IMG/VR virus record: IMGVR_UViG_3300021093_000244
Span: 1 to 31,777 of that record
DNA length: 31,777 nucleotides
Source of the DNA: a virus
Reading direction: 5' to 3' (one strand)
Shown: piece after piece, positions 1 to 18,041 of the stretch
Layout: each line of letters opens with the position of its first letter
Position numbering within the stretch: position 1 is the first letter of the stretch
Notes under the pieces: model-generated
What the model was told of the DNA's origin: nothing
Databases searched by the model: none
What the model saw: the letters and a program-made list of their open reading frames with translations, nothing else
Made by a program: the position numbers and the translations under genes

Positions 1-19
1 TGATGCAATTAAAGAACGT

Positions 20-706
20 ATGAGGGGGAAGACGATTGTATTTTGTCTCCCAGGTCGTGGATGCTCATACATTTTTCTGAAGAACTTTGTACAACTCTGT
101 TTTGATCTGGTACAAAATCAGATGGCAATTCAGATTTCTCAAGATTATTCATCCATGGTGAATTTTGCACGGTGTAAAGTGCTTGGTGCAAATGTTCTCC
201 GTGGTCCCAATCAAATTCCTTGGGATGGAAAACTTGAGTATGATTATCAATTGTGGATTGACAATGACATTGTTTTTGATACAAACAAGTTCTGGCAACT
301 GTGTGATCTAGCTCTTCCTGTTGAAGGACAAGAGCGTGAAATCGCCGCAGGTTGGTACGCTACGGAAGATGGTCACACAACTTCTGTCGCGCACTGGTTG
401 GAAGAGGATGATTTCCGTAAGAACGGCGGTGTAATGAATCATGAAACCGTTGAGTCTATTTCAAAGCGCAAGAAGCCTTTCACTGTGGATTACACTGGAT
501 TTGGTTGGGTGCTCATTAAGAAGGGTGTCTTTGAGAATCTTGAGTATCCTTGGTTTGCTCCAAAGATGCAAGTCTTTGAATCTGGTGGAGTTCAGGATAT
601 GTGCGGTGAAGACGTTTCATTCTGTCTTGATGCAAAGGATGAAGGATTTGAAATCTGGTGCGATCCTCGCATTCGTGTTGGACATGAAAAAACTCGTATT
701 ATCTGA
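20..706 (+). CDS. GT-A-type glycosyltransferase-like protein
   Basis: The 228-residue product looks like a nucleotide-sugar-dependent glycosyltransferase with a GT-A fold. The sequence shows a DxD-type motif, D81-N82-D83, after a hydrophobic strand (YQLWIDNDIVFD), which in this fold binds the metal and sugar nucleotide. Near the end there is a G-E197-D198 motif followed by FCLDAKDEGFEIWCDP and a final VGHEK with H222, the usual late acceptor/metal site pattern. The start at 20 gives MRGKTIVFCLPGRG; no good ribosome binding site precedes it. An open frame entering from the left edge ends at TGA 21-23, so an ATGA overlap with an upstream gene is likely. The stop overlaps the next ATG (TGATG at 704-708). 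Arg codons are mostly CGN, unlike the structural genes further on. Acceptor and sugar are unknown; similar genes are common in marine T4-like phages. Confidence 0.8.
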   Translation: MRGKTIVFCLPGRGCSYIFLKNFVQLCFDLVQNQMAIQISQDYSSMVNFARCKVLGANVLRGPNQIPWDGKLEYDYQLWIDNDIVFDTNKFWQLCDLALPVEGQEREIAAGWYATEDGHTTSVAHWLEEDDFRKNGGVMNHETVESISKRKKPFTVDYTGFGWVLIKKGVFENLEYPWFAPKMQVFESGGVQDMCGEDVSFCLDAKDEGFEIWCDPRIRVGHEKTRII

Positions 707-855
707 TGAACTACAACATACTTTATAAAGGACGTAAAATTTATACGAATCTCAGTGCAGAAGATTGTACTGAGATTCTTCAAGACTTTGCTGAGCGTTT
801 TTACTCGGATGAAGACGTTGATCCCAGTCTTCTTGAACTAGAAGAAATAGCATGA
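706..855 (+). CDS. small conserved hypothetical protein, 49 aa
   Basis: A 49-residue acidic protein begins MNYNILYKGRKIYTN and continues with an amphipathic, Glu/Asp-rich half (EILQDFAERFYSDEDVD). Its ATG overlaps the stop of the glycosyltransferase gene, and its own TGA (853-855) overlaps the next ATG at 852, so it is tied into an operon by translational coupling on both sides. The 'YKGRKIYxNLSxEDxxExLxDxAExFY' layout resembles, from memory, small proteins that recur at this position in T4-like cyanophages. No catalytic or metal-binding motif is visible and no function is assigned. Confidence 0.75.
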   Translation: MNYNILYKGRKIYTNLSAEDCTEILQDFAERFYSDEDVDPSLLELEEIA

Positions 856-1481
856 CTTTACAACATCTTTATTTTTCAGAATACGTCCCCACTTATCAAA
901 AAGAAATTATAGAAGAATCACTTATTGTTTCAGATAAGGTTTGTAGATTATATGATGGTATGGTTGCAGATCATCGTAAAGGAGTTTATAAATATTCAGG
1001 AAATTTAAATAGCACTTGGTTATATCCTGTTTATAATATCTTTGCTGCTGCATCTCCATCAAATCATTTCTATTACTTAAATGGTTTTATTAACTCAGCA
1101 GTTAAAAATCATTTTCATGCAGTTTTAAAATATCCACCTGATACTCAGATTTGGATGCAATCTTGGATTAATTTTCATTCAAGCGAAGATATTCTTAAGA
1201 AGCACAATCACCTCTTCTCATGGCACGGATATATTTCTATTGATCCAAAAGATAGTAAGACAGTTTTCTTTGACAAAAATGGAAAGGAGAACTATTATGT
1301 TGAAAACAAACCAGGATTAATGTACATTGGACCTGGTGATATATATCATGAAGTTCGTTTAAACACTTCAATGCAAAATGGTGATCATCGCATTACACTT
1401 GCATTTAACATTATGACAAGTCATGATCCAGACTTTTCATATAATATGATTGATGGATCATCTTTTATTCCAGTTTTTTAA
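852..1481 (+). CDS. 2OG-Fe(II) oxygenase-like protein
   Basis: This 209-residue protein fits the 2-oxoglutarate/Fe(II)-dependent dioxygenase superfamily that is abundant in marine T4-like phages. The visible core is KKH118-N-H120-LFSWHGYISID, a strand with the first iron ligand region, then GLMYIGPGDIYH166EV, the distal His, then HR180ITLAFNI, where Arg would bind the 2-oxoglutarate carboxylate. The first motif reads H-x-H rather than the classical H-x-D, as in the phage subfamily with 'HxHxxxxxSGxxY'. The substrate is not deducible; protein or small-molecule hydroxylation is possible. The start overlaps the 49-aa gene by 4 nt. An AAGGAG sequence at 1480-1485, overlapping the stop, serves the next gene. 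Activity is inferred, not shown. Confidence 0.78.
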   Translation: MTLQHLYFSEYVPTYQKEIIEESLIVSDKVCRLYDGMVADHRKGVYKYSGNLNSTWLYPVYNIFAAASPSNHFYYLNGFINSAVKNHFHAVLKYPPDTQIWMQSWINFHSSEDILKKHNHLFSWHGYISIDPKDSKTVFFDKNGKENYYVENKPGLMYIGPGDIYHEVRLNTSMQNGDHRITLAFNIMTSHDPDFSYNMIDGSSFIPVF

Positions 1482-1493
1482 GGAGTTGCATTT

Positions 1494-1637
1494 ATGGCAA
1501 AACGTCCGTCTCTTACAGGTAAGGTTGTTATTGAACCTAAAATTAAAAAGACTCGTCAAGGACAAGGTGGTAGCACCAAGTATGCAGCATCCTCTCGTAA
1601 TGTTGCAAAGAAAAAGTATCGCGGACAGGGTAAATAG
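1494..1637 (+). CDS. small basic protein, 47 aa
   Basis: A 47-residue, Lys/Arg-rich protein starts MAKRPSLTGKVVIEPK and ends KKKYRGQGK. The ATG has a strong ribosome binding site, AAGGAG at 1480-1485, with an 8-nt spacer, which together with the in-frame stop at 1635-1637 makes it a convincing gene despite its size. The high positive charge and Gly/Ser/Lys composition (TRQGQGGSTKYAASSRN) suggest binding to nucleic acid or to an acidic protein surface, but that is inference. Similar 45-50-aa basic proteins lie near the baseplate genes of cyanomyoviruses, from memory; no domain name is known to me. Confidence 0.8.
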   Translation: MAKRPSLTGKVVIEPKIKKTRQGQGGSTKYAASSRNVAKKKYRGQGK

Positions 1638-1658
1638 TTAAAAGATAAAACTTAACAC

Positions 1659-2360
1659 ATGTCTTGCTTAATTGCTAATCTACCTTCACAAGAAGTCTGG
1701 GTTCGTAAAGAGTATTTGACCGATCATCAAAGTGGTTGGGGTGAGTTTGTAAAAGGCGTCTGGGTATCTACTAAGTCGATACCTGGACGCGCTTTTTATT
1801 TTGAGACATACTTACCAGAGTATGCTGCAATGTATGATAAACTTCCTATCAGTGCTTTTTTATCTCGCCCAGAAACTCCAAACCCTGATTTAAATCTACC
1901 AAATCTTCAGTTTTGGAATTGCATGGACTATGGAGTGGTCTCTGTGCGGAAACAATTTATCGGATCTATGGATTATGAGTGCTATACTCGTGACTTTGGA
2001 CCTCAAAAAGGGACTTATATCTGCACTTTGGATAACTATCATCAAGATCCAGATGTGATTGACTATGCAACAAGTGAAAATCCAGCTGAACATAAGTCAC
2101 ATAATCTAATTGAATTACAAAACGGACAGTTTGCACTTTATCCTAATAACAGAATTCGCATCTATGACAATAGTTTAACTCCTAAAGAACCAAAAACACC
2201 TGATTTTAAGGTCTCAACTCGTTATTATCAGGTTGAAAACATCTATGAACGACTCGCAATGGGTAATGAAGACGAATATTTTTGGAAAACAGCACAAGAA
2301 CGGGATAGCAACCCCGTAAAAAGTTCTGATTTTAACGAATCAGGAGCACAAAATGACTAA
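1659..2360 (+). CDS. conserved cyanomyovirus hypothetical protein, 233 aa
   Basis: The product begins MSCLIANLPSQEVWVRKEY and is rich in Trp, Tyr and Asp, with a compact soluble look and no signal peptide or membrane segment. Stretches such as GEFVKGVWVSTKSIPGRAF and LQFWNCMDYGVVSV match, as I remember it, a protein kept close to gene 25 in many T4-like cyanophages; its function is not known. The N-terminal 200 residues look like the conserved body. The last 20 or so residues (ERDSNPVKSSD and onward) are encoded by the first copy of a 30-bp repeat (2301-2330) that recurs at 3044-3073, so the present C-terminus may have been rebuilt by a recombination event. It uses CGN Arg codons almost throughout, unlike the gene downstream. 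No late promoter is evident before it. Confidence 0.88.
   Translation: MSCLIANLPSQEVWVRKEYLTDHQSGWGEFVKGVWVSTKSIPGRAFYFETYLPEYAAMYDKLPISAFLSRPETPNPDLNLPNLQFWNCMDYGVVSVRKQFIGSMDYECYTRDFGPQKGTYICTLDNYHQDPDVIDYATSENPAEHKSHNLIELQNGQFALYPNNRIRIYDNSLTPKEPKTPDFKVSTRYYQVENIYERLAMGNEDEYFWKTAQERDSNPVKSSDFNESGAQND
2301..2330 (+). repeat. 30-bp direct repeat, copy 1 (two-hairpin element)
   Basis: This copy matches 3044-3073 at 29 of 30 positions; the only difference is C at 2309 against T at 3052. It lies inside the 3' end of the 233-aa gene. It can form a short hairpin, ACGGG (2300-2304) with CCCGT (2313-2317) around an 8-nt loop. After an A-rich linker, a second hairpin extends past the repeat: 2324-2331 pairs with 2338-2345 around TTAACG. 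The second stem buries the AGGA of the only ribosome binding site before the tiny frame at 2353. Confidence 0.95.
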
Positions 2361-2418
2361 ACAAGTCGATAAAGATAAAAATTCAAAGAAACTATACAAT
2401 GAAAAGACAACAGTATGA
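2353..2418 (+). CDS. possible 21-aa charged peptide
   Basis: A short frame encodes MTKQVDKDKNSKKLYNEKTTV. It is preceded by AGGAG at 2342-2346 with a 6-nt spacer, a good ribosome binding site in a region where most genes have none, which is the main reason to list it. It overlaps the end of the 233-aa gene by 8 nt in another frame. The peptide is highly charged with no motif. Its stop overlaps another ATG (2415) that opens a 13-residue frame running past the start of the 202-aa gene, so the frames could act as leader peptides passing ribosomes on. It may equally be a decayed remnant. Confidence 0.35.
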   Translation: MTKQVDKDKNSKKLYNEKTTV

Positions 2419-2442
2419 AGCAAAGATATAAGAAGAAATCTT

Positions 2443-3051
2443 ATGTATTATTTTGATCTAACAGATGAATGGAAATCAATTCATTTAGAAGATCTCTGGG
2501 TCTATAATAAACTGTTTCTAGCGCACTCTCTGGGGCATCTGTGTGGTCCTATAGGGTGCTCTGTTCCAGTTCCAGGTCATTATATAGTAAGACCTAGTAT
2601 TAATTTACTTGGAATGGGTCGTTTTTCTCGTATTGAGTACATAAAAGACCATACAGATCACTTTCATCCATCAGAGTTTTGGTGTGAAGTCTTTGAAGGG
2701 GAACATCTTAGTGTTGATTTCTGCAACAAAAAGTCAGAATTGGTAGTATTGGGTGCAAGAGATGATCAAAATCCTCTATATAAGTGGAAAAGATGGCAAA
2801 AAATTGATAGACAAGTTGAATTCCCGCCCATTTTGAACAACTTAAGGGGGTATTATAAGTGGATAAATTGTGAATTTATTGGAAATCACCTTATAGAAGT
2901 GCATTTTAGAAGAAATCCAGACTTTCGATATGGTAATAACATTGCGATACCTGTCTGGAAAGACGAAAAAGTTGAAAAAATTGAGAATTTGAAGTTTGTA
3001 AATGATAAAGATTACCTAAGAGAAGGATTTTACATAGATTTTGCGGGATAG
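2443..3051 (+). CDS. hypothetical protein, 202 aa, between direct repeats
   Basis: The 202-residue product starts MYYFDLTDEWKSIHLEDLWVYNK and is rich in aromatic and charged residues. Visible elements are a Cys/Gly/Pro segment (HLCGPIGCSVPVPGHYIVRPS), a GMGRFSRIEYI stretch and a WCEVFEGEHLSVDF strand pair. The 'YIVRP...GMG...WCEVFEG.HLSVD' order loosely recalls an ATP-grasp-like arrangement, but I cannot support that family. I have a weak recollection of relatives in marine T4-like phages. The gene sits between two 30-bp repeats; the second copy supplies its stop codon, and TAG at 3049-3051 is directly followed by TAA. Its Arg codons are mainly AGA/AGG, while the gene just upstream uses CGN, which fits separate acquisition. 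The ATG at 2443 is preceded only by a weak purine-rich stretch. Confidence 0.8.
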   Translation: MYYFDLTDEWKSIHLEDLWVYNKLFLAHSLGHLCGPIGCSVPVPGHYIVRPSINLLGMGRFSRIEYIKDHTDHFHPSEFWCEVFEGEHLSVDFCNKKSELVVLGARDDQNPLYKWKRWQKIDRQVEFPPILNNLRGYYKWINCEFIGNHLIEVHFRRNPDFRYGNNIAIPVWKDEKVEKIENLKFVNDKDYLREGFYIDFAG

Positions 3052-3073
3052 TAACCCCGTAAAAAGTTCTGAT
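3044..3073 (+). repeat. 30-bp direct repeat, copy 2 (two-hairpin element)
   Basis: This is the second copy of the element at 2301-2330, with one mismatch. It covers the last codons and stop of the 202-aa gene. The first hairpin is again possible: CGGG (3044-3047) pairs with CCCG (3056-3059), and the outer pair is now G-T instead of A-T. The second hairpin pairs TTCTGA (3067-3072) with TCAGAA (3084-3089); its 3' arm differs in sequence from copy 1 yet still pairs. Both copies end about 20 nt before the ATG of a small frame (2353 and 3094). Confidence 0.95.
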
Positions 3074-3093
3074 AACCCATTTTTCAGAAATTT

Positions 3094-3264
3094 ATGGAAA
3101 ATTCAAACCCAAAAATGCTTAGAGAAATTGCAAATGATGATTTAGTACCAAAAAAGCACAACTTTGAGACTCAAAGTGAGTTACATGAGAAAATTCGTAA
3201 TGATGAAGACTATGATGATTGGGATTATGGAACAGAACCCATTCCTTTAAAGGAGTGGAAGTGA
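3094..3264 (+). CDS. small acidic hypothetical protein, 56 aa
   Basis: A 56-residue frame begins MENSNPKMLREIANDDLV and ends DDWDYGTEPIPLKEWK. It is acidic in its second half (RNDEDYDDWDYG) and shows no known motif. It fills most of the gap between the 202-aa gene and the promoter of gene 25, which supports it as a gene. No clear ribosome binding site lies before the ATG; the sequence CAGAA there belongs to the 3' arm of the second hairpin of repeat copy 2, so its translation could depend on that structure. Function unknown. Confidence 0.62.
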   Translation: MENSNPKMLREIANDDLVPKKHNFETQSELHEKIRNDEDYDDWDYGTEPIPLKEWK

Positions 3265-3273
3265 AAAATACTT

Positions 3274-3281
3274 AATAAATA
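3274..3281 (+). promoter_or_regulatory. probable late promoter for gene 25
   Basis: AATAAATA differs at one position from the T4-type late promoter box TATAAATA, which is read with the phage late sigma factor gp55. It lies in the only non-coding stretch before gene 25, 21 nt before its ATG, so transcription would begin about 6 nt downstream of the box and give a short leader. No ribosome binding site better than AAGAAAAG is seen in that leader. Confidence 0.55.
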
Positions 3282-3302: not shown

Positions 3303-3704
3303 ATGCCCGTAGAACGAGTTAGTAGGGGTTTTAAAGATATCAGTATGACCTTTCAGACTAACCCTCTGAACTCGGATTTGATTGCCTTAAAAAATGAGAA
3401 TGCAATTGCTCGTTCTATACGTAATATTGTTTTCACTTTACCTGGGGAGAAGTTTTTCTCCCCAAGATTTGGTTCTGATGTAAGTAGGGCTCTATTTGAA
3501 AATATTAATGATATTGGAGCATCAATTTTAAAGGACCAAATTGAAAGGTCCATTCAGAAGTATGAACTAAGAGTAAATCTTCGTAGGGTTCAAACATTTC
3601 CTGATTATGATAACAATGGTTTTGAAGTGTTAATCATATATGACATTATTGGGATCGAGGTTCCAGCACAAGAGTTACAATTCGTCTTGCAATCGACTAG
3701 GTAA
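3303..3704 (+). CDS. 25: baseplate wedge protein gp25
   Basis: The 133-residue product matches the gp25 family (GPW/gp25), the small wedge protein that joins gp6 and starts sheath assembly at the baseplate of contractile tails; T4 gp25 has 132 residues. The family signature is clear: ENAIARSIRNIVFTLPGEKFFSPRFGSDV, followed by a helical segment with a C-terminal strand pair (FEVLIIYDIIG). The family is named lysozyme-like, but it is a structural fold without the catalytic Glu of phage lysozymes. It is the first gene after a probable late promoter (3274-3281), and its stop abuts the gene 6 start without overlap. A perfect 9-bp hairpin lies in the coding sequence at 3443-3464. Confidence 0.95.
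   Translation: MPVERVSRGFKDISMTFQTNPLNSDLIALKNENAIARSIRNIVFTLPGEKFFSPRFGSDVSRALFENINDIGASILKDQIERSIQKYELRVNLRRVQTFPDYDNNGFEVLIIYDIIGIEVPAQELQFVLQSTR
3443..3464 (+). repeat. perfect 9-bp inverted repeat in gene 25
   Basis: TGGGGAGAA (3443-3451) and its exact reverse complement TTCTCCCCA (3456-3464) flank a GTTT loop. The DNA encodes the conserved PGEKFFSP motif of gp25, so protein constraint explains part of it. About one stem this long is expected by chance in a window of this size when all small loops are allowed, so only the sequence, not a function, is certain. Confidence 0.9.
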
Positions 3705-5633: not shown

Positions 5634-8600
5634 ATGAATATTAAAAAGAGAATTCAATTCAGCAATATTGTAAGAGATCAAGTACCCTCTTACGTTAAGG
5701 AAGAATTTCCTCTTATTGTAGAATTTTTGTCTCAGTATTACACTGGACAAGAATTTCAAGGTTCTCCTGTAGATTTAATACAGAACATAGATCAATACAT
5801 AAAAGTAGATAACATAACCAATTTAAGTGAGACTACAACTATTCTTTCCAGTGTCGATTTTTTTGATGAAGAAATATTAGTTGATAATACTAGTGGTTTT
5901 CCAGACTCTTATGGTCTCATAAAGATTGATAATGAGATCATTACATATACTGGAAAAACGGATATTTCATTTACAGGTTGTGTAAGGGGATTCTCTGGTA
6001 TTGTAGAATACACTGAATCAGATCAATTAGGGGATCTAGAGTTTTCTCAGACTGATATAGAAGAGCATATTTCTGGATCTGTAGTAACAAATTTAAGTGT
6101 TCTGTTTTTAAAAGAATTTTTAAAGAAAATAAAATATCAATTAACACCAGGATTTGAATCCAGAGAATTTTTTTCTGGAACTGATAATTCTTTTATTACA
6201 AGAGAAGTAAATCAGGCATTATTTTTAAAGCAATCTAGAGATTTTTATTCATCAAAGGGAACTGATGAATCTTTTAAAATTCTTTTCAAAGCTCTTTATG
6301 GTGAAAGAGTTGATGTAATTAAACCAAAAGAATTTCTCATCAAACCATCAGATGCAAATTATCAAATAACCTTCGATTTTGTTGCGGAAAGTTTAGATGG
6401 AGACCTGTCAGAACTAAGAAATTCTACTCTTTATCAGGATACTTATGGGGAAGATATTTCTAAAGCATATGCACCTATAACAACAGTAGAAAAAATTACA
6501 GTATATGATGCAGTAAGAAGAAATACAGTAAAACCTGTAGGAGTTACTACTGACACATATTATAAACTTAGTGTTGATGCTGGATTTGATAGAGATATCA
6601 GTGTAGAGGGATCCATTTATGGAAAGTTTTCATATCACCCTAAAACAAAATTAATCGGTGAAGTTGGAGTTGGAGCAACAACTTTTGATGTTGATTCAAC
6701 TATTGGATTTCCAAGACAAGGTGAATTAGTTGTTGTCTATAAGGATACAAGTGTTGGTATAGTTTCATACTCATCCAAAACAATTAACCAGTTTTATGGA
6801 TGCTCAAATGTAACAGGAACAATAGTTGATGGATCTAATATTGATATTAATACTTATGCTTATGGTAGATCTGTTGTAGATGGAAGAGAACTAAGATTAA
6901 GAATAAGACCTGTTCTTAATAATTTAAAGATAAACGAAGAAACTTATGGGTATGAATCTGGTGATAAGATAAAAATAAAAACTTTAGGTATAGAAAATAA
7001 AGAAAAAGTCAAGAATGAGTGGATATTAAATATTGCAAATAACTATTCTGTTGCTGGAATAGGTTTAACCGCAACAAATACGTATAAAATTTTTGTTAAT
7101 GAGGATCATAGTCTCCATATTGGAGATAGCATTACTATTATTAGTAGTTTAGGAAATGAAAAGGACTTTGTAGTAAAGGACATTTTAAGTTCTAAGTCTT
7201 TTATTTGTGAGGGATCCACTTTTAATTCTTTGAATGCTTCATTCTCAATTAAGAGAAAACTATTAAAAGGAAATTCTGATCAATATTCAATTTCAAATGT
7301 TGTAACTAACGTACAAAATACGTACATTGACGGGGAAAAAGTTTTAGTAGCTTCTCCTTCAATACCATTCTACAATCAACAAAAAATAGATCCTAAAAGA
7401 TCTTCATTTGTTCTTTCTGGAACCTACATTGGAGATACTTTTAAAATCACTGATGGAATAGATCATAATTTCCAAACTGGCGATGCCGTTTTTTATACTC
7501 CAGAAAGATCAAGTTTTACAACCTTTAATTCTTCTGGAGAACCAGTAATTGCCTTTAATGTAATTAGTTCTCTGTTTGATACTGGGGTTTATTTCGTAAA
7601 AAGAGTGGATGCAAATAATGTTAAATTTGCTTTAAGTCCATCTCAAATTCATAGTGGCGAATTTATTAATCTTCAAAGTGAAAGAGTAATAACTAATAAT
7701 AAAATAGAATTATTCAATTACTATAATAAAAATTTATCTACTCAAAAATTATTAAGGGAAATATCTCCACCAGTATTTAAATCAGATTTACAAGAAACCA
7801 TGCCAGGATTAACTGGAATATTGGTTAATGGTGTTGAAATATTAAACTATAAATCAAATGATGGGGTTTTTTATGGTCCTATTAATTATATAACTGTAAC
7901 TTCTTCTGGTTCAGGGTATGATGTGATAAATCCTCCCGTCTTATCAGTATCTGATAATATTGGATCTGGTGCTACGGGTAATGTATCTGTTATAGGACGT
8001 TTTAACGAAATTAGAGTTTTAGATCCTGGATTTGATTACGTTGAAACTCCATCTATAGAAATAACTGGAGGAAACGGATCTGGAGCTATTGCAAAGGTAA
8101 ATACGAAACTAATTTCCCATGAAGTTAGTTTCAACTCTGTTGAAAGTGCTGCTGTTGTAAGTTTAGCATCAACTTCATCCTTAGGATTTACAACATATCA
8201 CAAATTCAGAAATGGCGAAAGAATCATATACGAAACTTTTAGTCAAAAATCAATAGGTGGATTAACTACATCCGCATCTTACTATGTGAATGTGAGAGAT
8301 CCATATACTGTTAAACTCCATAAAAACTTTGGTGATGCTATTTCAGGAGTAAATACAGTATCACTGACAAGTTATGGCGTAGGAAACCATTCACTAAAAT
8401 CTTTTTCTCAAAAATTAGTGGTTGCAAGTGTATCAATTATCAGTCCTGGATCTGGGTATGAGAATAAATTAAGAACTTGCCCATCATCAGGAATTAATAC
8501 TTCTTTATCAACAATTTCAATTAAAAACCACGGTTATAAAACTGGAGAAATTATAACTTACAATGTCGATGGAACTCAAATAACAGGTTTATCAACAAAT

Positions 8601-11600
8601 ACCCAATATTATGTAACTACGGTTGATAACAATACATTTAAGTTATCACAAGTTGGAATTACAACAAATGAAAAAGATTTTTACTTAAAAACAAATCAAT
8701 TTGTTGATTTAAGTTTTGCTGGGATAGGGACTCATTTATTTAATTATCCAGAGATACAAATAAAAGTTTTAGGATCTGTTGGTATAGCATCAACAGGAAA
8801 TAATGAATTCAAATGTGTGTTACAACCCATCGTAAGAGGGGAAGTATCTAGTGTTTATTTGAAATCAAATGGATCTTCTTATGGTGTTGAAGATATTATC
8901 AACTATTATAGGGCGCCAAATATTAGATTACTCTCTGGAGAAAATGCTCAAGTAACTCCAATTGTTTCTAATGGAAAAGTTGTAGATGTAATTGTTAATA
9001 AGAAAGGTAGTTCTTATAATTCACCACCCAATTTAATAATTACTGGAGATGGTGTAGGTGCTATTTTAACCCCAGTTATAAACAATGGGGAGTTAGTTGA
9101 AGTTAAAATCATTGAGAGTGGCATTGGATATACCCAAGACCAGACTGGAATAACAGTAACTTCTTCTGGTGTTGGATGTATTTTAGACGCATCAATTACT
9201 AGATGGACTATCAATTTATTCTCAAAATATTTAAATTCTGTAAGTGATGATGATGGATTTTTAACAGATCCCATAAACGATGATTATGGTCTTCAATATT
9301 CACATCTTTATGCGCCAAGAAATCTAAGAAGAATATTATATTCAAAAAATCAAGAAGGAAACACAATTTATGGCAGAAAAGATCTGATTATTAGGAATAA
9401 TGTAGAAACTACATCAACTGATCACTCGCCAATAATTGGATGGGCTTATGATGGAAATCCAATTTATGGTCCATATGCTTATATAAGCAGAGCAGGTGGA
9501 ACTATCACTCAAATGAAATCTGGATATTCAATTTCACTGAATCCATCAAGACCTAGCACATCCATTTATCCAGAAGGATTTTTTGTTGAAGATTACACAT
9601 ATGTAAAATCTGAAGATGAAACCGTCCTAGATGAAAATAATGGAAGATTTTGTATAACTCCAGATTATCCAAAAGGTGTGTATGCATATTTTACAACTCT
9701 TAATCCAATAGAATCATCTAGTGGTCCATTTAAGGGATATAAACAACCCGCATTTCCATACTTAATTGGTAATTCATATAAAGCGGTTCCAAATGAGTTT
9801 AATTTTAAGAAGGTATCAAATCAAGATGATATTGATTTAAATACAACAAAATGGTTCAGAAATGTTTCTAGTTATAATTTAAATCTCGCAGACTTCAATG
9901 GATACGACTACATAATTTCCCCAAATAGATACAAGGAGCAAGTTTCTGACATTAAATTTGCTAAGAAAGGATCTGTAGATACTGTTGGTATATTAACTGG
10001 AGGATCAAAATATAAAGTCAATGATTCTATTGTCATAGAAAGTGATGGAACAGGTGGAAGTGGATTCTATGCACAAATATCTAAAGTATCTGGTAAAATA
10101 GTAAATACCGTCAGTGTTGCAACATCATCTATATCAAATGTGGAGTTTTACACTGATGGTAACAACAAAAACTTTATTGCTTTTTCAAATAATCCACATA
10201 ATTTTAAAAATAATGATTTAGTTGTACTGTCGGGCATCAATACAACCGCTTCTTTATTGGAAGGATACTATAATATTGGTGTTTCAACAAATACATTTTC
10301 ATTGAAAGCAGGAGTTGGTTCTACAGGTGTCACTGGAATAATTACTTATTTTTCTATTGGTGGTAATTTATCTTTCCCCACAATTAGAGAAAACGATATA
10401 CTGGGAATAGGAACAGAAAGAGTTAAAGTTCTATCAGTTGATCTAAAATCTTCTAGAATAAAAGTTCTAAGATCCGTAGATGGAACAGTAGGATCTTCGC
10501 ATACTACAACTACAGTTTTATATGAAAAAACTAGAAAATTAATAGTTAAAAATGTAGGATATAAAACATCCTATGATTATAGACTAAACAAAGAAATATA
10601 TTTCAACCCAGCAGAATCTGTAAGCATAGGCACTTTTTCGGGTGTTGGAATAGGATCAACATTAGTGTTCTCAAATCCTGGAACTGGAGTCTCCTCGGTA
10701 TTTGTTCCAACTAAAACACTATACTTATCAGGTCATAATTTAAAAACTGGCGACAAGGTTCAATATTATCTAAATGGTGGTGGATTTGGATTGGGAATTT
10801 CCACAAATGGAATTTCTTCTTCAAGATTGCAAGATGAATCAATTCTTTATGTTGCAAAAGTTTCGGACGACTTAATTGGTATTGCAACTGTCATGGTTGG
10901 TCTTGGATCAACAGGCGTATTCTCTGGTGTTGCAAATACAACTAGAAATATTGGAACACTGTTCTTTAACAGTGTGGGCGATGGAAATAATCACAGTTTC
11001 AAAACACTCTATAATGATGTACCAATTGGTAAAATCAGTAAGAATATTGTAACCGTATCTTTAGCAGAAACACACGGTCTTTTAAATAACGATATTGTTG
11101 AAATTAGTGTAAATCCATCTATTTCAACATCAATCACAATAGAGTATAATGACTACAATAGAGTTTTAGTTGCCAATCCTAAGGCATTTACCGCTGCTGG
11201 AGTTAGCACAACAAATGACACTATAACAATTTTAAATCATGAGTATTACACTGGGGAAAAAGTAATTCACACTTCAACATCTCCAAGTGGAGGATTAGTT
11301 AATAATAAAGTTTATTATGTTTATGTTGTAGATACAAATACAATTAAATTAACTACAACACAATATGAATCTTTGCAACCTAGACCATCTTTTGTTGGAA
11401 TTACCAGCTCTTCTACTGGAGAAATTTTCCAAGTAAATCCAAAAATTGATGTTTATAAAAATACAACTATAAACTTTGATCTTTCAGACTCTTCATTATC
11501 ATATATTCAAAACTCAAATAATTACCCTGCATTTGAATTTAAAATTTATACAGATAAAGAATTTACTCATGAATATGATAGTAGCAAATCCCTGAATTCA

Positions 11601-14600
11601 TTTGATGTAGGAAAATCTGGTATTATTGGTGTTACTCCAGGTGCAAAAGTAACTCTTAGAGTTGATCAATATACACCAGAGGTGCTTTACTATAAATTAG
11701 TACCCCTTGATAATATTTCAAATCCAATTACCAAAAAAGAAATAGTTGTTGATAATTCAATTCCCTCGAATAGTGAAATTATTCCAAGAAATAGTAAGTA
11801 TAATGGAAAACATCCAATTTTAGTTTCTGGGTCACAATCATTTACATATAATCTAGAAGAGTATCCAGAAAAATCTGCATATGTTTCGGCAGAGTCTGAA
11901 ATAAAGTATGATACTGACTCAGAAACTGCATTTGGTTCAATCAAACAAGTTGAAATTTTAAATGGTGGTTTCAATTTTAAAAAGATGCCTGGTTTTACTA
12001 CAGTAACATCAGAATATGGAACAGGAGCAGTATTAGATCTTTCAAGTTCTTCCATAGGAAAAATTGGAAAAGTTCAGATAATGGACATTGGATTTGATTA
12101 TTCATCTGATTTTACTTTAAGACCTACAACAAAACTTGCAGAGATTGTTCAATTAGAACCTCTTGCATCTTTTGAAAGTATTGGTATTGCTTCGGTTGGA
12201 AAGTATTATTCTCTAGCGCCAAAATTATTAGTTTTTGATGGTAGAACAAAACAACTAGTTCCAGAAGTAGATTTAAAATATGATTTAAACACAAATGAGA
12301 TTCAAATACTTAAGAACACTTTTGGAGTAACAAACGTTCAACCAACAATCATACCGATACAAAATACTAATGGTGTTGGCATCTCAAGTATGCGTTATAA
12401 TACTACAACAGATGACGTGACAGTATTTTTATCTGTTGGTTTTAGCACTCAAAACACTTTCCCATTTGCTACTAATGATAAAGTATTAATTGAAAATGTT
12501 AGTGTTGGTGTTGGATCAACTGGAAAAGGATACAACTCGGCAAATTATAACTATGGTTTATTCACTATTAAATCTGTTGCAGAGAATAGAGGTGGTCTTG
12601 GCATTGTAACTTATAGCATGAGTGGATATTTAAACTCTGGTGAAGTACCTGGAAGATTTGATTTTGTAAATTCTTCGGGAATTATTGTTCCAGCAAAATA
12701 CTTCCCACAATTTAATATTGTACTAAAGAAAAATAACTTTTTAGATGGTGAAAAGGTAATTGATATTACAAATAATGAGTCTTCAGGAAAAGTTTCTGAT
12801 TGGAACGCTTATACAGAAACCTTAAGAATAGAAACTATTGATGACTTTACTTCTGGTAATACCATTGAGGGTCAAACTTCTAAAACAAGAGGTATTGTAA
12901 AAACTGTAACTAATTTTGATTCAAATTATGAGATAGCAGAAAAGTCTAGGGTTCTTAAGGGGTGGGATAGAAATACTGGATTTTTAAATGACAATATTCA
13001 AAGATTGCATGATAATGATTATTATCAAAATTTCTCATACTCCTTGAAATCAAAAGTTGATTATAGCACTTGGGAAGATCCTGTAAGTGTGTTAAATCAC
13101 ACAACTGGATTTAAGAAGTTCTCAGATTATCAACTAGAGTCCAAACTTTCTTTTGAAAATGAAACCTCAATGGTAGTGGGAGTTACTACTAACATAACAG
13201 GAGTTGATATAATTATTGATATGATTGGAATTGGTGATTTAAATTGTGTTGCTGATTTTGATCTAGTCAGAGAAAATTCTCTATTTATTGGAGCGAATGC
13301 ATATTCAAATGAATTATACTTCAATAGTAGAACAATTACGGACTATTCAGAATCTATTGGCAACAGAGTTCTAATAATTGATGATATTAGTGATCAGTTT
13401 AATAGTTTCCCAAGACCAACTAGATACGCTGAAACTTATAGATGGTTACTTTCTGATACTAAGGCAGTTAAATTCTTGACTTATATCAAGGATAGAAGAT
13501 ACACATCAGAAAGACAATTCATGTTTGTGACTTTCTTAATTGATGATGATAGATTCTCATTTATTAATCAATATGCAAGACTGGAGACAGTTCTAGATCT
13601 TGGATCATTTGATGCTATTGTTGATGGATCTGAAGGTGTTCTTCAATTCTACCCAAATAGATTTACTGTAAATGACTATGAAATCAGAACATTATCATTT
13701 AATGTCAGAGATAATCTAGTTGCCACAGCGTCTTCTCAATTTGGTGTAACAGAATCTGGAACATCTGTAAAATATGAAGTATTACCACCAGTGGTTGTAC
13801 CCACATCATCATTAACGAACATTGTTTCAATGGGCACAACTTATTCATCAGCAAAAATGTTGGTTGAAATAAAAGGAAATAATGGAGAATATGAGTTTGA
13901 TGAGTTGAATCTAACTCACAATGGAACAGATGTTGAGCTATTAGAATATGGTCAGTTGTCTAATCATTCAAGAGATGTTTTCTCAAGCGTTGGTTTAGGT
14001 ACATATATTGCATATATTTCTGGATCTGATGTGAAGGTTGATTTCAGACCAAGACCTGGAATAGGAGTTACTGTAGCAATATCTAGAGTTTCTTTTGCCA
14101 ATACTTCTGTTACTGGACTTGGAACCACAACAATTAATTACAATGGAAATTTTGACATGAAATACTTGAGACTGCAATCAAAACAAGTTTCAATAGCATC
14201 ATCAGCATCACCAACAGAGACAGTTATTGCAACATATCCCAATGTTTATGATGGTGGATATTGTCTGATGTCAGTTAATGATTTGACAAATAATCAAACT
14301 TATATGTCAGAAATAATGATTGGTGATGATGATTATGAAGTTTATTATACAGAGTGGGGTGCAGTATATACATCTGGTCCATTGGGCAATGTTGGTGCTG
14401 CATTAACAGGAGGTACAATTAATTTAACCTTTACGCCAAATGCAAATACGGATGTTCAGGTTAAGACCTTCTTAAATACGATGAGATTCACTGATGAGAG
14501 TCAAACAATCACTAGTATTGCTGATGGAACTTTAGAAACTGAAGCGGCTACCTACTCGGGTACAGAAAGGGATATTAAGAGAGAATTTCCACTAACTCAT

Positions 14601-17600
14601 AAATCATTTAATATCTTCAAAAGAACTTTTGATGGAAGCGATCCCGCAATTGCAAACACAACATCAAATACTATTACAATAGGTAATCACTTCTTTGTAA
14701 CAGGTGAAGAATTACAATACACCTATGCAGGAGCTGGAACCAGCCAAGCTATTGGTATTGCTTCAACTTCATTTGTTGGTATTGGCACAACTGACAAATT
14801 ACCTGGAACTGTCTATGTTGTAAAAATTAATGAAAGTAAGATTCAATTTGCCGCAACCGCCGAGGATGCTTTAAAGACAACTCCAAAACTAATAAATCTA
14901 ACTCACGTTGGAATAGGAACATCGCATACTTTTATATGTAAAAATCAAAACTCAAAAGTCATTGTTGCTGTTGATAATATTATTCAATCCCCAATAGTTT
15001 CCACTGCTATTACAACTCAATTAAGAAGAGATGCATCCTCTGCAGATGATATTCTTTATTTCACTGGAATTACATCATTCTTTGGTGGAGACTTGATTAA
15101 GATCGGCAGTGAAATTATGAGAATTGAGGGTGTTGGTATTGGATCGACTAATGCAATAAGAGTTAGAAGACCATGGCTAGGAACACTTGAAACTAATTAT
15201 TATTCTGGTGACTTAATAACTAAGGTAACTGGAAGTTACAATATAGTTGAAAATACTTTAAACTTTGTTGAAGCTCCATATGGTAATATCCCACTAACTA
15301 CCACAACTAATGCCCCAGATGATAGATATTGGGTTGGCATTTCAACTAATTCTAAGTTCCAAGGTAGAGTATTCTTAAGATCAGGATCCCCAAATACAAC
15401 TACAGAAACTTATTCCAAAAATTATATCTATGATGATATTAGTTCCGCATTTAATGGAACTAGAAAGGCATTTACTCTGAAATCCAGTAGAAATGACGTA
15501 TCTGGGATTGCAAATGAAAATATCGTGATGCTAATCAATGATGTTTTCCAAGGACCTGGACTAAGTAATGATTATGCAATGTCAGAGACTTCTGGAATTA
15601 CCTCAGTTACCTTTACTGGAACAGCATCTTCAGTTGCATATGATCCAAACAATGCAAATATCCCTGTCGGCGGTCTAATTATTTCGGTAGGATCTTCACA
15701 AGGATTTGGATATCAATCTTTGGTTTCGGCAGGTGCTACAGCAGTTGTTTCAATTGCAGGAACTATTTCCAATATTGCAATCGGAAACACTGGTTCTGGT
15801 TATAGAGCAAATACAAAATATGAGTTAATCACTAATGTAACAAATGAAGTTGGTATAGGATCCACTGTAATTACAATTGACAATAAGAGCAGTGTATTTA
15901 AAGCATTAGAACTTGCTAATACTGGTTCCAACTGCACTGTAAGTATAAGCACTTATGTTGCTGGTGCCACCATAGTTTCTTCTGGATCAACATATATTAT
16001 AATAGGATCTGGATCAACCTCATCAAAATCAATACCTGCAAATTCAACTGTTTATATTTCAATCGCAAATCCACCTGTTGGATATGTTAATGTTGGAGTT
16101 GCAAATAGTAACGTTGGTGTTAGTACCATAACCCATGTTGGTATTGCAACAATATACGATGGTCATGTTACTTCAAATGTTTATGTTACAAACCCAGGAT
16201 CTGGTTATACCTCAACAGGAAATCTCTATGTTGTAATTGATGATCCACTTCCATACTCGGATGTTCCTTTAGTCTATAGTTCTCAGTATCCTTCTGGAAT
16301 AGGAACACAAGCAACTATTAGTTTTGTTGTTGGTTCTGGAACTAGTATAACTGATTTTGAAATTCAAAATCTTGGATATGGATATGGTCAGGGAGAATAT
16401 CTAACTGTCCAGTCTGGAGGAATTGCAGGAATTCCAACAACTTCTAGTCCAGACTTTGTAGATTTCACGATCAGTGTTCAAAAAACATTCAATGATAAAT
16501 TCACAGCATGGAGTATTGGCGAACTTCAAGTATTGGATAAACTAGACGATTTATTTGATGCATCTAGAACTGTATTCCCACTAACTCTTCTTGGGGATTT
16601 GATTTCGATTAGATCTGCTAAGGGATCTAATATTGACGTTGAAGCAACTCTATTGATATTCATTAATGACGTTCTTCAAGTCCCAGGTCAAGGTTACACA
16701 TTCAAAGGTGGGAGTAATATCACATTTACAGAGGCACCAAAACCTGGAGATACTTCAAAAATTATCTTCTATAGGGGAAGTGGATCTATTGACGTTGCTG
16801 ACATTGAAGTTCTTGATACTGTTAAAGTTGGGGATAATCTAACAATTAAGTCAGATTCTAGTTTTGGGCAACCAGCATCATATACTGAAGATGAAAGAAT
16901 TGTAACTCAAATAAACACCACTGATACTTTAGAAACTAATACTTATTTTGGCGCTGGTATTGTACAAGATTCAACTTTACTTAGAACAATTACATGGTGC
17001 AGACAAACTGAAGATTTATTCATAAACAATAAAGAAGTTGGAAAAGATAGAGAACTTTATGAGGCAAATATCTATCCATCATCTTACTTAATCAAAAATG
17101 TTGGAATTGGAACTACTATTGCATATGTTGATAATATTCGTCCATTCTTCAACCAATTAAATGAAAATAATTTAACACTTACTTTCCAAAATTTTATAAC
17201 TTTTGTATCTCAAGATGTTAAAGTCGGTGCTGCAGCTACTGCAATAGTTTCCGCAACAGGTCAAATATCAAGTTTTGATATCTCTGAGGGTGGATCTGGA
17301 TATGAAGTTGCGCCAGAAGTTTCATTATCAAATCCTGGAATAGGGACAACCGCAAGAGCAACTGCAACTTCATCTATCACTGCTGGTATTGTTACATCAA
17401 TATCGCTATCATATTCTGGAACTGGATATACTTCATCAAATCCACCACAAGTATTGATTGAACAACCAGTAATAACCCTTGAAGATAACACAGTAGTATC
17501 TTACCAAGGAGACTTCGGAATTGTTAGTGGAATCGCGCAAACTAGCGTTGGTATTGCATCTACTGGTCTTGTATTTGATCTGGTTATCACTCCACAGTCT

Positions 17601-18041
17601 TTCTTAAGAAACACCAAGATAGTTTCAAGTGCATCTACTGTTAGTGGAATTCAAACTGGATACTACTTTGTAATATACAATTCAAATGTTGGTAATGGAC
17701 TGACATCAATAAATGGAGATGGATCTGTAATTGGAATAGGAACTAACTTTATTGATAATGTATATAAAGCAGAGTCCGTTTCTATTGCACAAACTGATGC
17801 TGTTGGATTTGGTTTAACTTATGTTGCCAAGGTCACCGTAAGCGTTTCCAGTTACAACGGATTAACTGGTTTTGGATATAGTTCTTTCTATGGTGAGTTT
17901 AGTTGGGGTAGGATCAATTTAGGACCAAGAGCTGGAATTATTACACATAATGCATATACACAAAATGGGGTAACTGGAATATCAACAGGAACTGTAGTGA
18001 AGAGAACAAGACCTCTTAAGTATGTCAATTACTTATCATAA
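5634..18041 (+). CDS. giant modular baseplate/tail structural protein with YHYH domain (4135 aa)
   Basis: This single 12.4-kb frame sits where T4 has gene 7, between genes 6 and 8, so it probably forms or decorates the baseplate wedge. Residues 1-60 (KKRIQFSNIVRDQVPSYV) and 130-240 (DFYSSKGTDESFKILFKALYGE) form a distinct N-terminal part that I take as the attachment domain. Residues 63-117 hold an 'IDNEIITYT...CVRGFSG' module. Then follow many beta-type repeats: GSGY/GSGA pairs (about residues 750-825, 1070-1190, 3340-3400, 3500-3590, 3860-3950) and seven 'TGE.V.Y...YYV' units (from about 613, 859, 970, 1521, 1704, 1871, 3022). A YHYH-family domain, marked by HSPIIGWAYDGNPIYGPYAY, starts near residue 1264. 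Segment 2596-2690 (YIKDRRYTSERQF) and a GDTSKIIFYRGSG unit near 3710 recall cyanophage fibre modules. No stop or frameshift is seen. A role in fibre-like host contact is inference. Confidence 0.9.
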   Translation: MNIKKRIQFSNIVRDQVPSYVKEEFPLIVEFLSQYYTGQEFQGSPVDLIQNIDQYIKVDNITNLSETTTILSSVDFFDEEILVDNTSGFPDSYGLIKIDNEIITYTGKTDISFTGCVRGFSGIVEYTESDQLGDLEFSQTDIEEHISGSVVTNLSVLFLKEFLKKIKYQLTPGFESREFFSGTDNSFITREVNQALFLKQSRDFYSSKGTDESFKILFKALYGERVDVIKPKEFLIKPSDANYQITFDFVAESLDGDLSELRNSTLYQDTYGEDISKAYAPITTVEKITVYDAVRRNTVKPVGVTTDTYYKLSVDAGFDRDISVEGSIYGKFSYHPKTKLIGEVGVGATTFDVDSTIGFPRQGELVVVYKDTSVGIVSYSSKTINQFYGCSNVTGTIVDGSNIDINTYAYGRSVVDGRELRLRIRPVLNNLKINEETYGYESGDKIKIKTLGIENKEKVKNEWILNIANNYSVAGIGLTATNTYKIFVNEDHSLHIGDSITIISSLGNEKDFVVKDILSSKSFICEGSTFNSLNASFSIKRKLLKGNSDQYSISNVVTNVQNTYIDGEKVLVASPSIPFYNQQKIDPKRSSFVLSGTYIGDTFKITDGIDHNFQTGDAVFYTPERSSFTTFNSSGEPVIAFNVISSLFDTGVYFVKRVDANNVKFALSPSQIHSGEFINLQSERVITNNKIELFNYYNKNLSTQKLLREISPPVFKSDLQETMPGLTGILVNGVEILNYKSNDGVFYGPINYITVTSSGSGYDVINPPVLSVSDNIGSGATGNVSVIGRFNEIRVLDPGFDYVETPSIEITGGNGSGAIAKVNTKLISHEVSFNSVESAAVVSLASTSSLGFTTYHKFRNGERIIYETFSQKSIGGLTTSASYYVNVRDPYTVKLHKNFGDAISGVNTVSLTSYGVGNHSLKSFSQKLVVASVSIISPGSGYENKLRTCPSSGINTSLSTISIKNHGYKTGEIITYNVDGTQITGLSTNTQYYVTTVDNNTFKLSQVGITTNEKDFYLKTNQFVDLSFAGIGTHLFNYPEIQIKVLGSVGIASTGNNEFKCVLQPIVRGEVSSVYLKSNGSSYGVEDIINYYRAPNIRLLSGENAQVTPIVSNGKVVDVIVNKKGSSYNSPPNLIITGDGVGAILTPVINNGELVEVKIIESGIGYTQDQTGITVTSSGVGCILDASITRWTINLFSKYLNSVSDDDGFLTDPINDDYGLQYSHLYAPRNLRRILYSKNQEGNTIYGRKDLIIRNNVETTSTDHSPIIGWAYDGNPIYGPYAYISRAGGTITQMKSGYSISLNPSRPSTSIYPEGFFVEDYTYVKSEDETVLDENNGRFCITPDYPKGVYAYFTTLNPIESSSGPFKGYKQPAFPYLIGNSYKAVPNEFNFKKVSNQDDIDLNTTKWFRNVSSYNLNLADFNGYDYIISPNRYKEQVSDIKFAKKGSVDTVGILTGGSKYKVNDSIVIESDGTGGSGFYAQISKVSGKIVNTVSVATSSISNVEFYTDGNNKNFIAFSNNPHNFKNNDLVVLSGINTTASLLEGYYNIGVSTNTFSLKAGVGSTGVTGIITYFSIGGNLSFPTIRENDILGIGTERVKVLSVDLKSSRIKVLRSVDGTVGSSHTTTTVLYEKTRKLIVKNVGYKTSYDYRLNKEIYFNPAESVSIGTFSGVGIGSTLVFSNPGTGVSSVFVPTKTLYLSGHNLKTGDKVQYYLNGGGFGLGISTNGISSSRLQDESILYVAKVSDDLIGIATVMVGLGSTGVFSGVANTTRNIGTLFFNSVGDGNNHSFKTLYNDVPIGKISKNIVTVSLAETHGLLNNDIVEISVNPSISTSITIEYNDYNRVLVANPKAFTAAGVSTTNDTITILNHEYYTGEKVIHTSTSPSGGLVNNKVYYVYVVDTNTIKLTTTQYESLQPRPSFVGITSSSTGEIFQVNPKIDVYKNTTINFDLSDSSLSYIQNSNNYPAFEFKIYTDKEFTHEYDSSKSLNSFDVGKSGIIGVTPGAKVTLRVDQYTPEVLYYKLVPLDNISNPITKKEIVVDNSIPSNSEIIPRNSKYNGKHPILVSGSQSFTYNLEEYPEKSAYVSAESEIKYDTDSETAFGSIKQVEILNGGFNFKKMPGFTTVTSEYGTGAVLDLSSSSIGKIGKVQIMDIGFDYSSDFTLRPTTKLAEIVQLEPLASFESIGIASVGKYYSLAPKLLVFDGRTKQLVPEVDLKYDLNTNEIQILKNTFGVTNVQPTIIPIQNTNGVGISSMRYNTTTDDVTVFLSVGFSTQNTFPFATNDKVLIENVSVGVGSTGKGYNSANYNYGLFTIKSVAENRGGLGIVTYSMSGYLNSGEVPGRFDFVNSSGIIVPAKYFPQFNIVLKKNNFLDGEKVIDITNNESSGKVSDWNAYTETLRIETIDDFTSGNTIEGQTSKTRGIVKTVTNFDSNYEIAEKSRVLKGWDRNTGFLNDNIQRLHDNDYYQNFSYSLKSKVDYSTWEDPVSVLNHTTGFKKFSDYQLESKLSFENETSMVVGVTTNITGVDIIIDMIGIGDLNCVADFDLVRENSLFIGANAYSNELYFNSRTITDYSESIGNRVLIIDDISDQFNSFPRPTRYAETYRWLLSDTKAVKFLTYIKDRRYTSERQFMFVTFLIDDDRFSFINQYARLETVLDLGSFDAIVDGSEGVLQFYPNRFTVNDYEIRTLSFNVRDNLVATASSQFGVTESGTSVKYEVLPPVVVPTSSLTNIVSMGTTYSSAKMLVEIKGNNGEYEFDELNLTHNGTDVELLEYGQLSNHSRDVFSSVGLGTYIAYISGSDVKVDFRPRPGIGVTVAISRVSFANTSVTGLGTTTINYNGNFDMKYLRLQSKQVSIASSASPTETVIATYPNVYDGGYCLMSVNDLTNNQTYMSEIMIGDDDYEVYYTEWGAVYTSGPLGNVGAALTGGTINLTFTPNANTDVQVKTFLNTMRFTDESQTITSIADGTLETEAATYSGTERDIKREFPLTHKSFNIFKRTFDGSDPAIANTTSNTITIGNHFFVTGEELQYTYAGAGTSQAIGIASTSFVGIGTTDKLPGTVYVVKINESKIQFAATAEDALKTTPKLINLTHVGIGTSHTFICKNQNSKVIVAVDNIIQSPIVSTAITTQLRRDASSADDILYFTGITSFFGGDLIKIGSEIMRIEGVGIGSTNAIRVRRPWLGTLETNYYSGDLITKVTGSYNIVENTLNFVEAPYGNIPLTTTTNAPDDRYWVGISTNSKFQGRVFLRSGSPNTTTETYSKNYIYDDISSAFNGTRKAFTLKSSRNDVSGIANENIVMLINDVFQGPGLSNDYAMSETSGITSVTFTGTASSVAYDPNNANIPVGGLIISVGSSQGFGYQSLVSAGATAVVSIAGTISNIAIGNTGSGYRANTKYELITNVTNEVGIGSTVITIDNKSSVFKALELANTGSNCTVSISTYVAGATIVSSGSTYIIIGSGSTSSKSIPANSTVYISIANPPVGYVNVGVANSNVGVSTITHVGIATIYDGHVTSNVYVTNPGSGYTSTGNLYVVIDDPLPYSDVPLVYSSQYPSGIGTQATISFVVGSGTSITDFEIQNLGYGYGQGEYLTVQSGGIAGIPTTSSPDFVDFTISVQKTFNDKFTAWSIGELQVLDKLDDLFDASRTVFPLTLLGDLISIRSAKGSNIDVEATLLIFINDVLQVPGQGYTFKGGSNITFTEAPKPGDTSKIIFYRGSGSIDVADIEVLDTVKVGDNLTIKSDSSFGQPASYTEDERIVTQINTTDTLETNTYFGAGIVQDSTLLRTITWCRQTEDLFINNKEVGKDRELYEANIYPSSYLIKNVGIGTTIAYVDNIRPFFNQLNENNLTLTFQNFITFVSQDVKVGAAATAIVSATGQISSFDISEGGSGYEVAPEVSLSNPGIGTTARATATSSITAGIVTSISLSYSGTGYTSSNPPQVLIEQPVITLEDNTVVSYQGDFGIVSGIAQTSVGIASTGLVFDLVITPQSFLRNTKIVSSASTVSGIQTGYYFVIYNSNVGNGLTSINGDGSVIGIGTNFIDNVYKAESVSIAQTDAVGFGLTYVAKVTVSVSSYNGLTGFGYSSFYGEFSWGRINLGPRAGIITHNAYTQNGVTGISTGTVVKRTRPLKYVNYLS
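7887..8111 (+). repeat. GSGY/GSGA repeat pair in the giant gene
   Basis: Two consecutive units encode SSGSGYDVINPPVLSV with IGSGATGNVSV, then DPGFDYVETPSIEIT with GNGSGAIAKV. Each unit is about 35 residues: a strand, a G-x-G/F-x-Y turn, Pro-rich strand, and a GSGA turn. The same unit recurs elsewhere in this gene and in genes 8 and 14 and the DUF4815 gene. Confidence 0.85.
8838..9200 (+). repeat. GSGY-type repeat array in the giant gene
   Basis: At least three diverged units lie in tandem. Their turns read SNGSSYGVED, KKGSSYNSPPNLIIT and ESGIGYTQDQTGITVT, with partner turns SGENAQVTPIV, GDGVGAILTPVI and SSGVGCILDASI. The array ends just before the segment leading to the YHYH domain. Confidence 0.8.
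9424..9700 (+). other. YHYH-domain coding segment within the giant gene
   Basis: The encoded segment begins DHSPIIGWAYDGNPIYGPYAY (residues about 1264-1284) and runs through EGFFVEDYTYV, NNGRFCITPDYP and GVYAYFTT. The 'HSPIIGWAyDGNPIYGPYgY' core and late 'YPxGxYaYF' strand are the hallmarks of the YHYH family (named after its Tyr/His residues), which occurs in bacterial secreted proteins and in cyanophage structural proteins. The preceding YSHLYAPRNLRR stretch is also part of the phage version. Domain limits are approximate. Confidence 0.8.
17215..17480 (+). repeat. C-terminal GSGY repeat pair in the giant gene
   Basis: Two units encode SEGGSGYEVAPEVSLS with GIGTTARATAT and then SYSGTGYTSSNPPQVLIE. 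They are the clearest copies of the module near the C-terminus and are the closest in pattern to the units in gene 14. Confidence 0.85.

Follow-up and report, generated by a model that had tools for sequence, protein, structure and literature searches.

A covarying pseudoknot in a 30-bp repeat ahead of baseplate gene 25 of T4-like cyanophages, a probable translational switch

What is a 30-bp direct repeat doing twice, 743 nt apart, just ahead of the baseplate genes of a virus? The question was raised by IMG/VR record IMGVR_UViG_3300021093_000244, of which the 31,777 nucleotides analyzed here are referred to as the window. An earlier note had described the repeats at 2301-2330 and 3044-3073, with one mismatch, as enclosing a 21-aa frame (2353-2418) and a 202-aa ORF (2443-3051), and had interpreted them as the trace of a gene insertion. 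Coordinates, content and identity were reproduced (29 of 30 positions, the sole difference being C/T at position 9). No repeat sites beyond these two were found in the window and none in 100 dinucleotide shuffles of it, which places the repeats far beyond chance. The region contained the following features.

1631-1636, + strand: late-promoter-like TAAATA at the stop of a 47-aa gene
1659-2360, + strand: 233-aa cargo gene, phrog_3704, whose last 19 codons lie in leader copy 1 and the DNA 3' of it
2301-2330, + strand: leader element copy 1, with a putative pseudoknot within its first 28 nt, exact matches in at least 120 viral contigs and both helices covarying among 99 variants; P1 is 2301-2304 with 2313-2316, P2 is 2307-2308 plus 2310-2312 with 2323-2327, and 2309 (C) is a free bulge
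2323-2347, + strand: competing hairpin of copy 1 predicted by RNAfold, occupying the P2 3' strand (2323-2327) and covering the ribosome-binding site AGGAG at 2342-2346
2353-2418, + strand: 21-aa frame, the truncated start of a long-type small gene (MTKQVDKDKN...) with a full length of 84 aa in the relative L141
2384-2462, no strand: junction of two parental sequences according to blastn, L141-like on the left and L133/L132-like on the right
2443-3051, + strand: 202-aa cargo gene, phrog_3577, with its TAG stop inside leader copy 2
3044-3073, + strand: leader element copy 2; P1 is 3044-3047 with 3056-3059, P2 is 3050-3051 plus 3053-3055 with 3066-3070, and 3052 (T) is a free bulge
3058-3096, + strand: competing hairpin of copy 2 predicted by RNAfold, covering the start codon ATG at 3094-3096; a clear ribosome-binding site is gone
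3094-3264, + strand: 56-aa short-type small gene (MENSNPKMLREI...ELHEKIRNDEDYDDWDYGTEP), which would be controlled by leader copy 2
3303-3704, + strand: gene 25, baseplate wedge subunit (phrog_261, E=8e-48), with its own TAAATA at 3276-3281

The 56-aa small gene had no match in Pfam and PHROG searches. The 233-aa protein bears a PurM/ferredoxin label in isolate records and had no Pfam match; the label looks unreliable. Elsewhere in the window, a 209-aa 2OG-Fe(II) oxygenase-like gene (PF13759) at 852-1481 is missing from the close relative L133, and the first 999 aa of a 4135-aa ORF at 5634-18041 match phrog_2885, a baseplate wedge subunit.

The 30-mer was not confined to the window. A scan of viral contigs gave the exact matches listed above, and each of the stretches read outside the window carried one copy. 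Judged from sequence, the element sits alone in hundreds of phages whose hosts are marine and freshwater cyanobacteria. Isolates with the element are T4-like phages of Synechococcus and Prochlorococcus such as Syn9, S-RSM4, S-SKS1 and S-WAM2. With a covariance model, 14 of the 15 isolates of the first set, and also Syn9, S-WAM2 and ACG-2014d, each had one strong match (E<1e-8); no second strong copy was found at E<0.005 within complete genomes. Strong matches were absent from T4, HTVC008M, P-SSM2, P-HM2, S-SSM7, S-PM2, P-SSM4 and S-SM2; many T4-like cyanophages (P-SSM2, P-HM2 and S-SSM7 among them) are without the element. A cellular origin was rejected, since the 84,980 species genomes yielded a single exact match, on a short MAG contig where the flanking DNA is cyanophage-like. 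The contig VGMB01000217.1 (L123), probably placed in a Chlamydiae MAG by a binning error, carries the exact element between such flanks.

In complete cyanophage genomes the element usually lies right ahead of a small ORF that is followed by baseplate gene 25. Gene 25 followed within 2.5 kb downstream, after the small ORF, in 347 of 354 informative contigs. In S-SCSM1 the element and the small ORF are kept together apart from gene 25, so that the small ORF, and not gene 25, is what the element goes with. The leader is shared by loci with different small ORFs and, among other T4-like phages, by loci with a VOC-like gene. This small gene ahead of gene 25 has a modular build and encodes 50-96 aa: the N-terminal module, PVDRDxNYM..WGT, resembles phrog_1414 in marine phages and is missing in short alleles, and the C-terminal module is ELHEKIRNDEDYDDWEYGTEP. 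The VOC/glyoxalase-like gene is preceded by a pseudoknot with a CUAG/CUAG P1 in the contigs L391, L417, L423, L437 and L455; L417 carries two of these in a row, of which the first lacks the bulged base.

Upstream ORFs run through the DNA of the element in frame 0 (86), frame 2 (17) and frame 1 (8), and in 26 cases it is not read. Since the leader DNA of CGGG types was kept whichever of three upstream frames, or none, ran through it, selection acts on the nucleic acid, and a conserved protein tail was ruled out as the cause. A frameshift stimulator was set aside as well, as the element lies ahead of the start codon.

By covariation, the repeat is a conserved cis-acting RNA element whose first 28 nt form an H-type pseudoknot. 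In this structure positions 1-4 pair with 13-16 (P1) and positions 7-8 and 10-12 with 23-27 (P2), position 9 is bulged and the connector is A-rich. The variant set comprised 99 distinct sequences, partly gathered with patterns that fixed the core. At least nine different 4-bp P1 stems were present (CGGG/CCCG, AGGG/CCCU, UGGG/CCCA, GGAG/CUCC, AGAG/CUCU, AGCG/CGCU, AGUG/CACU, CUAG/CUAG, GGGG/CCCC and GGCG/CGCC), with compensatory changes that included C-G, A-U, U-A and G-C. In one scan, position 3 could not be G and position 14 could not be C, and the other P1 positions were open; of its 102 matches, 85 had all four P1 pairs. For P2, all 17 contigs in which A7 and U27 had both changed were re-paired (16 as G-C, one as U-A). 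Seven contigs had changes at both G8 and C26; five near-identical ones carried A8-U26 with a late promoter in front, and the other two had no late-promoter context and look like chance matches.

Over the whole structure 98.8% of the alignment cells were paired, compared with 24-53% in slid controls (42-53% for shifts of one or two columns). Five pairs showed changes on both sides, and the covariation score was reached by none of 500 shuffles. The pairs 4-13, 10-25, 11-24 and 12-23 were invariant, so that three P2 pairs and one P1 pair give no covariation signal. Position 9 could be any base or absent, which fits a bulge. The invariant core across variants was AU-AG-N-AAC / AAAAGUU.

A second structure was predicted downstream. 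In 324 distinct leaders the sequence between element and start codon paired with the 3' part of the element with a mean z of -2.2 against shuffles, and in 97% of them the folding energy lay below the shuffle mean. The downstream hairpin took at least three of the five bases of the P2 3' strand in 96% of 323 leaders, and in 59% when the downstream sequence was shuffled (predicted). Pairing of an element with its own downstream sequence reached -8.6 kcal/mol, versus -6.7 kcal/mol with downstream sequences of other P1 types. Different lineages use different letters for this pairing: CUGAUUU..AAAUCAGGAG in the types of window copy 1, UUUAAAAGU..ACUUUUAAA in Syn9 and CUCUCUAAAAGUUCUGGAAACAGACUUUAGAGAGG in AGAG types. 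The predicted mean unpaired probability of the ribosome-binding site was 0.20 with all bases free to fold versus 0.70 with the element withheld, a state in which the element bases were barred from pairing and pseudoknot energies were not part of the calculation. Some leaders lack an obvious ribosome-binding site; in window copy 2, where it is missing, RNAfold placed the hairpin over the AUG.

As the P2 3' strand is claimed by the hairpin of the ribosome-binding region, pseudoknot and start-masking hairpin exclude each other. By prediction, the leaders have two mutually exclusive conserved structures, one of them masking the start site, and in this respect work like a riboswitch. Two exclusive leader states, brought about by the complementarity of the P2 3' strand to the ribosome-binding or start region, are well supported by these predictions.

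Concerning transcription, a TAAATA late promoter was found near the element in 175 of 382 loci, mostly ending 3-7 nt before P1. In many marine phages P1 begins 3-7 nt after TAAATA, which would put it at the 5' end (about +1) of the predicted late transcript. In CGGG types, to which the window belongs, cargo genes (the 233-aa gene, the 202-aa gene and others) lie between the leader and the 47-aa gene with its TAAATA (1631 in the window); in 143 of the 146 CGGG-type loci, and in the window, the element has no adjacent promoter and yet is kept letter for letter.

Taken as a whole we consider it probable, if by no means certain, that the pseudoknot leader is a riboswitch-like two-state translational switch of a small late gene and that the window holds two recombined cassettes. 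The element probably switches translation of the small gene beside the tail baseplate genes, as far as folding models allow. The leader would normally begin a late mRNA, or lie close to its 5' end, ahead of the small gene and of baseplate genes 25 and 6. With the pseudoknot formed the start site would be free (presumed ON state), and with the downstream hairpin formed it would be masked (presumed OFF state). Most likely, the choice would be made either by a factor of the infected cell (a metabolite, or an RNA-binding protein of phage or host that reads the invariant core) or by the speed of folding. The outcome would set the translation of the small late gene. In the window, copy 1 now heads a truncated small gene and copy 2 the intact short one.

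Among the other readings, a protein-binding operator is the best placed, although we regard it as possible and not probable. Here a phage protein would repress or time translation without an intrinsic two-state switch. The precedent in T4-like phages is gp32 of T4, which binds a pseudoknot in its own leader and thereby represses its translation (PMC3014915), possibly the sole viral example of a pseudoknot in translational autoregulation according to a 2010 review (PMC3014915). Like that operator, the element is an H-type pseudoknot in a T4-like phage mRNA leader upstream of a start codon, with an expected action on translation, and this is its nearest function in T4-like phages. The invariant loop and the A-rich strand could be protein contacts, and the occurrence of the same leader before different small ORFs and the VOC-like gene fits a reader acting in trans. 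However, sequence and locus differ (a small gene before gene 25), and the element is followed by a start-masking hairpin, whereas the gene 32 operator is followed by an unstructured AU-rich run. Gene 32 lies elsewhere in these genomes; in Syn9 it is at 1245 and the element at 58104, outside the gene 32 leader. Binding by the product of its own gene, as with gp32, is unlikely because the downstream products differ, and autoregulation by the small gene product is further weakened by the VOC-like gene downstream. The strongly conserved start-masking hairpin points instead to an RNA switch.

That the switch senses a ligand is a more doubtful proposal. The element would then be a new cyanophage riboswitch class of 28 nt, below the smallest known natural aptamer, by which an infected-cell metabolite lets the virus time late-gene translation. 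The preQ1-I riboswitch, for instance the Tte aptamer, has about 33 nt. Like preQ1-I (RF00522), the element is a very small H-type pseudoknot with a G-rich P1 and an A-rich third loop, as seen from the covariation and the invariant AAAA. Further similarities are the loop letters AG-N-AAC followed by the P1 3' strand, a P2 made by AG/CU-type pairing, and a leader position with translational logic. The preQ1 pocket consists of U6-C15-A29 in Tte numbering (PMC8612554). In contrast, the aligned positions of the element are A5, C12 and U25, invariant in 99 variants, so that the U6 and A29 contacts are missing, and opposite the cytosine that would contact preQ1 stands G23 of the RNA itself. Moreover, its P2 3' strand is not the ribosome-binding site, and the downstream gene is not a queuosine gene. 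For the window region and 11 variant loci, Rfam 15 at E<=10 returned chance matches only, mostly snoRNA-like, and the RF00522 covariance model gave no match at E<=10. Having no Rfam match and lacking two of the three pocket contacts, the element was not classed as preQ1-I, which is nevertheless its nearest shape.

Structured RNAs in T4-like cyanophage transcripts have precedents: cyanophage papers report the cis-RNAs wcaG, PhotoRC-II, the glutamine riboswitch and CfrI. These RNAs, and manA, resemble the element in this respect. Unlike the element, which is linked to late baseplate genes, they are linked to photosynthesis or metabolic genes, and none of the five matched at this locus in the Rfam scans. 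A literature search, which was not exhaustive, found no description of the element.

A third reading, that the pseudoknot shields late mRNA from 5'-end-dependent decay or directs its processing, with the downstream hairpin being secondary, is improbable. The location of P1 3-7 nt after TAAATA, at about +1, speaks for it. The element remains unchanged, however, in the window and the CGGG-type loci that are promoterless at this point, and the conserved pairing to the start region and the single copy per genome are left unexplained.

Why, then, does the window carry two copies? L141 matches window positions 1-2383 at 99.6% (blastn) and then runs into its intact 84-aa small gene; the 21-aa frame of the window is what remains of such a gene. 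L133, which has neither the 233-aa gene nor copy 1, matches from 2463 on at 90%, and L132 is 100% identical from 2347 on (both blastn). With a left part matching L141 and a right part matching L132/L133, the window carries two like cassettes one after the other. On these alignments, two related cassettes were probably joined by recombination between L141-like and L133-like relatives.

An assembly chimera between co-occurring L141-like and L132-like phages is an unlikely source of the double copy. L132 starts at 2347, just past copy 1, and the homology to L141 stops at 2383, giving an overlap there. Against this, the junction at 2384-2462 lies inside L132 at 100% identity, and a chimera formed at a repeat common to both phages would contain a single copy. 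A chimera would in any case leave the RNA finding unaffected.

The gene-gain scar of the earlier note, according to which a 30-bp target was doubled when the 202-aa gene came in, is hardly credible, because the element is old, covaries as RNA and is found alone in hundreds of phages, and because the 202-aa gene elsewhere has the element directly 3' in 41 of 48 independent loci and within 1.8 kb upstream in none, which also excludes target-site duplication. In its favor, two copies flank the gene in the window, and relatives without it have a single repeat as foreseen (the close relative L141, L010, L035, L066 and others). Deletion of one repeat and the intervening DNA did give the proposed in-frame ...RDSNPVKSSDNPFFRNL..., although the frame ends at 3145, about 72 nt past the repeat and not about 50. 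The C-terminus NPVKSSDNPFF expected of insert-free relatives was found in none. Insert-free homologues of the 233-aa protein (L141, L147, L169, L177, L180, L181 and others) already end in RDSNPVKSSDFNESGA... (DFNESGA..., not NPFF), an ending that the note had named beforehand as refuting. The contrast in Arg codons is real (8 AGA/AGG and 3 CGN in the 202-aa gene, 9 CGN and 1 AGA in the 233-aa gene). Yet gp25 and gp6 just downstream likewise favor AGA/AGG, so that the contrast belongs to the right-hand side as a whole, not to a single foreign gene.

Gene gain just upstream of gene 25, in contrast, stands. The interval gp46-gp25 is a gene-gain hot spot of cyanomyoviruses, described by gene content (PMC3037559); it is the same place in the genome and explains the changing cargo upstream of the leader. 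The description consulted does not mention an RNA element at the gene-25 edge.

T4-like cyanophages rank with the most common viruses in sunlit ocean waters. To our knowledge, little has been established about their post-transcriptional control. The present analysis adds an apparently undescribed, very small pseudoknot, supported by covariation and present as a single copy per genome in many isolates, with a conserved start-masking partner helix. It also illustrates that what looks like the scar of an insertion can be a regulatory RNA, and specific reporter and binding tests are now possible for the element.
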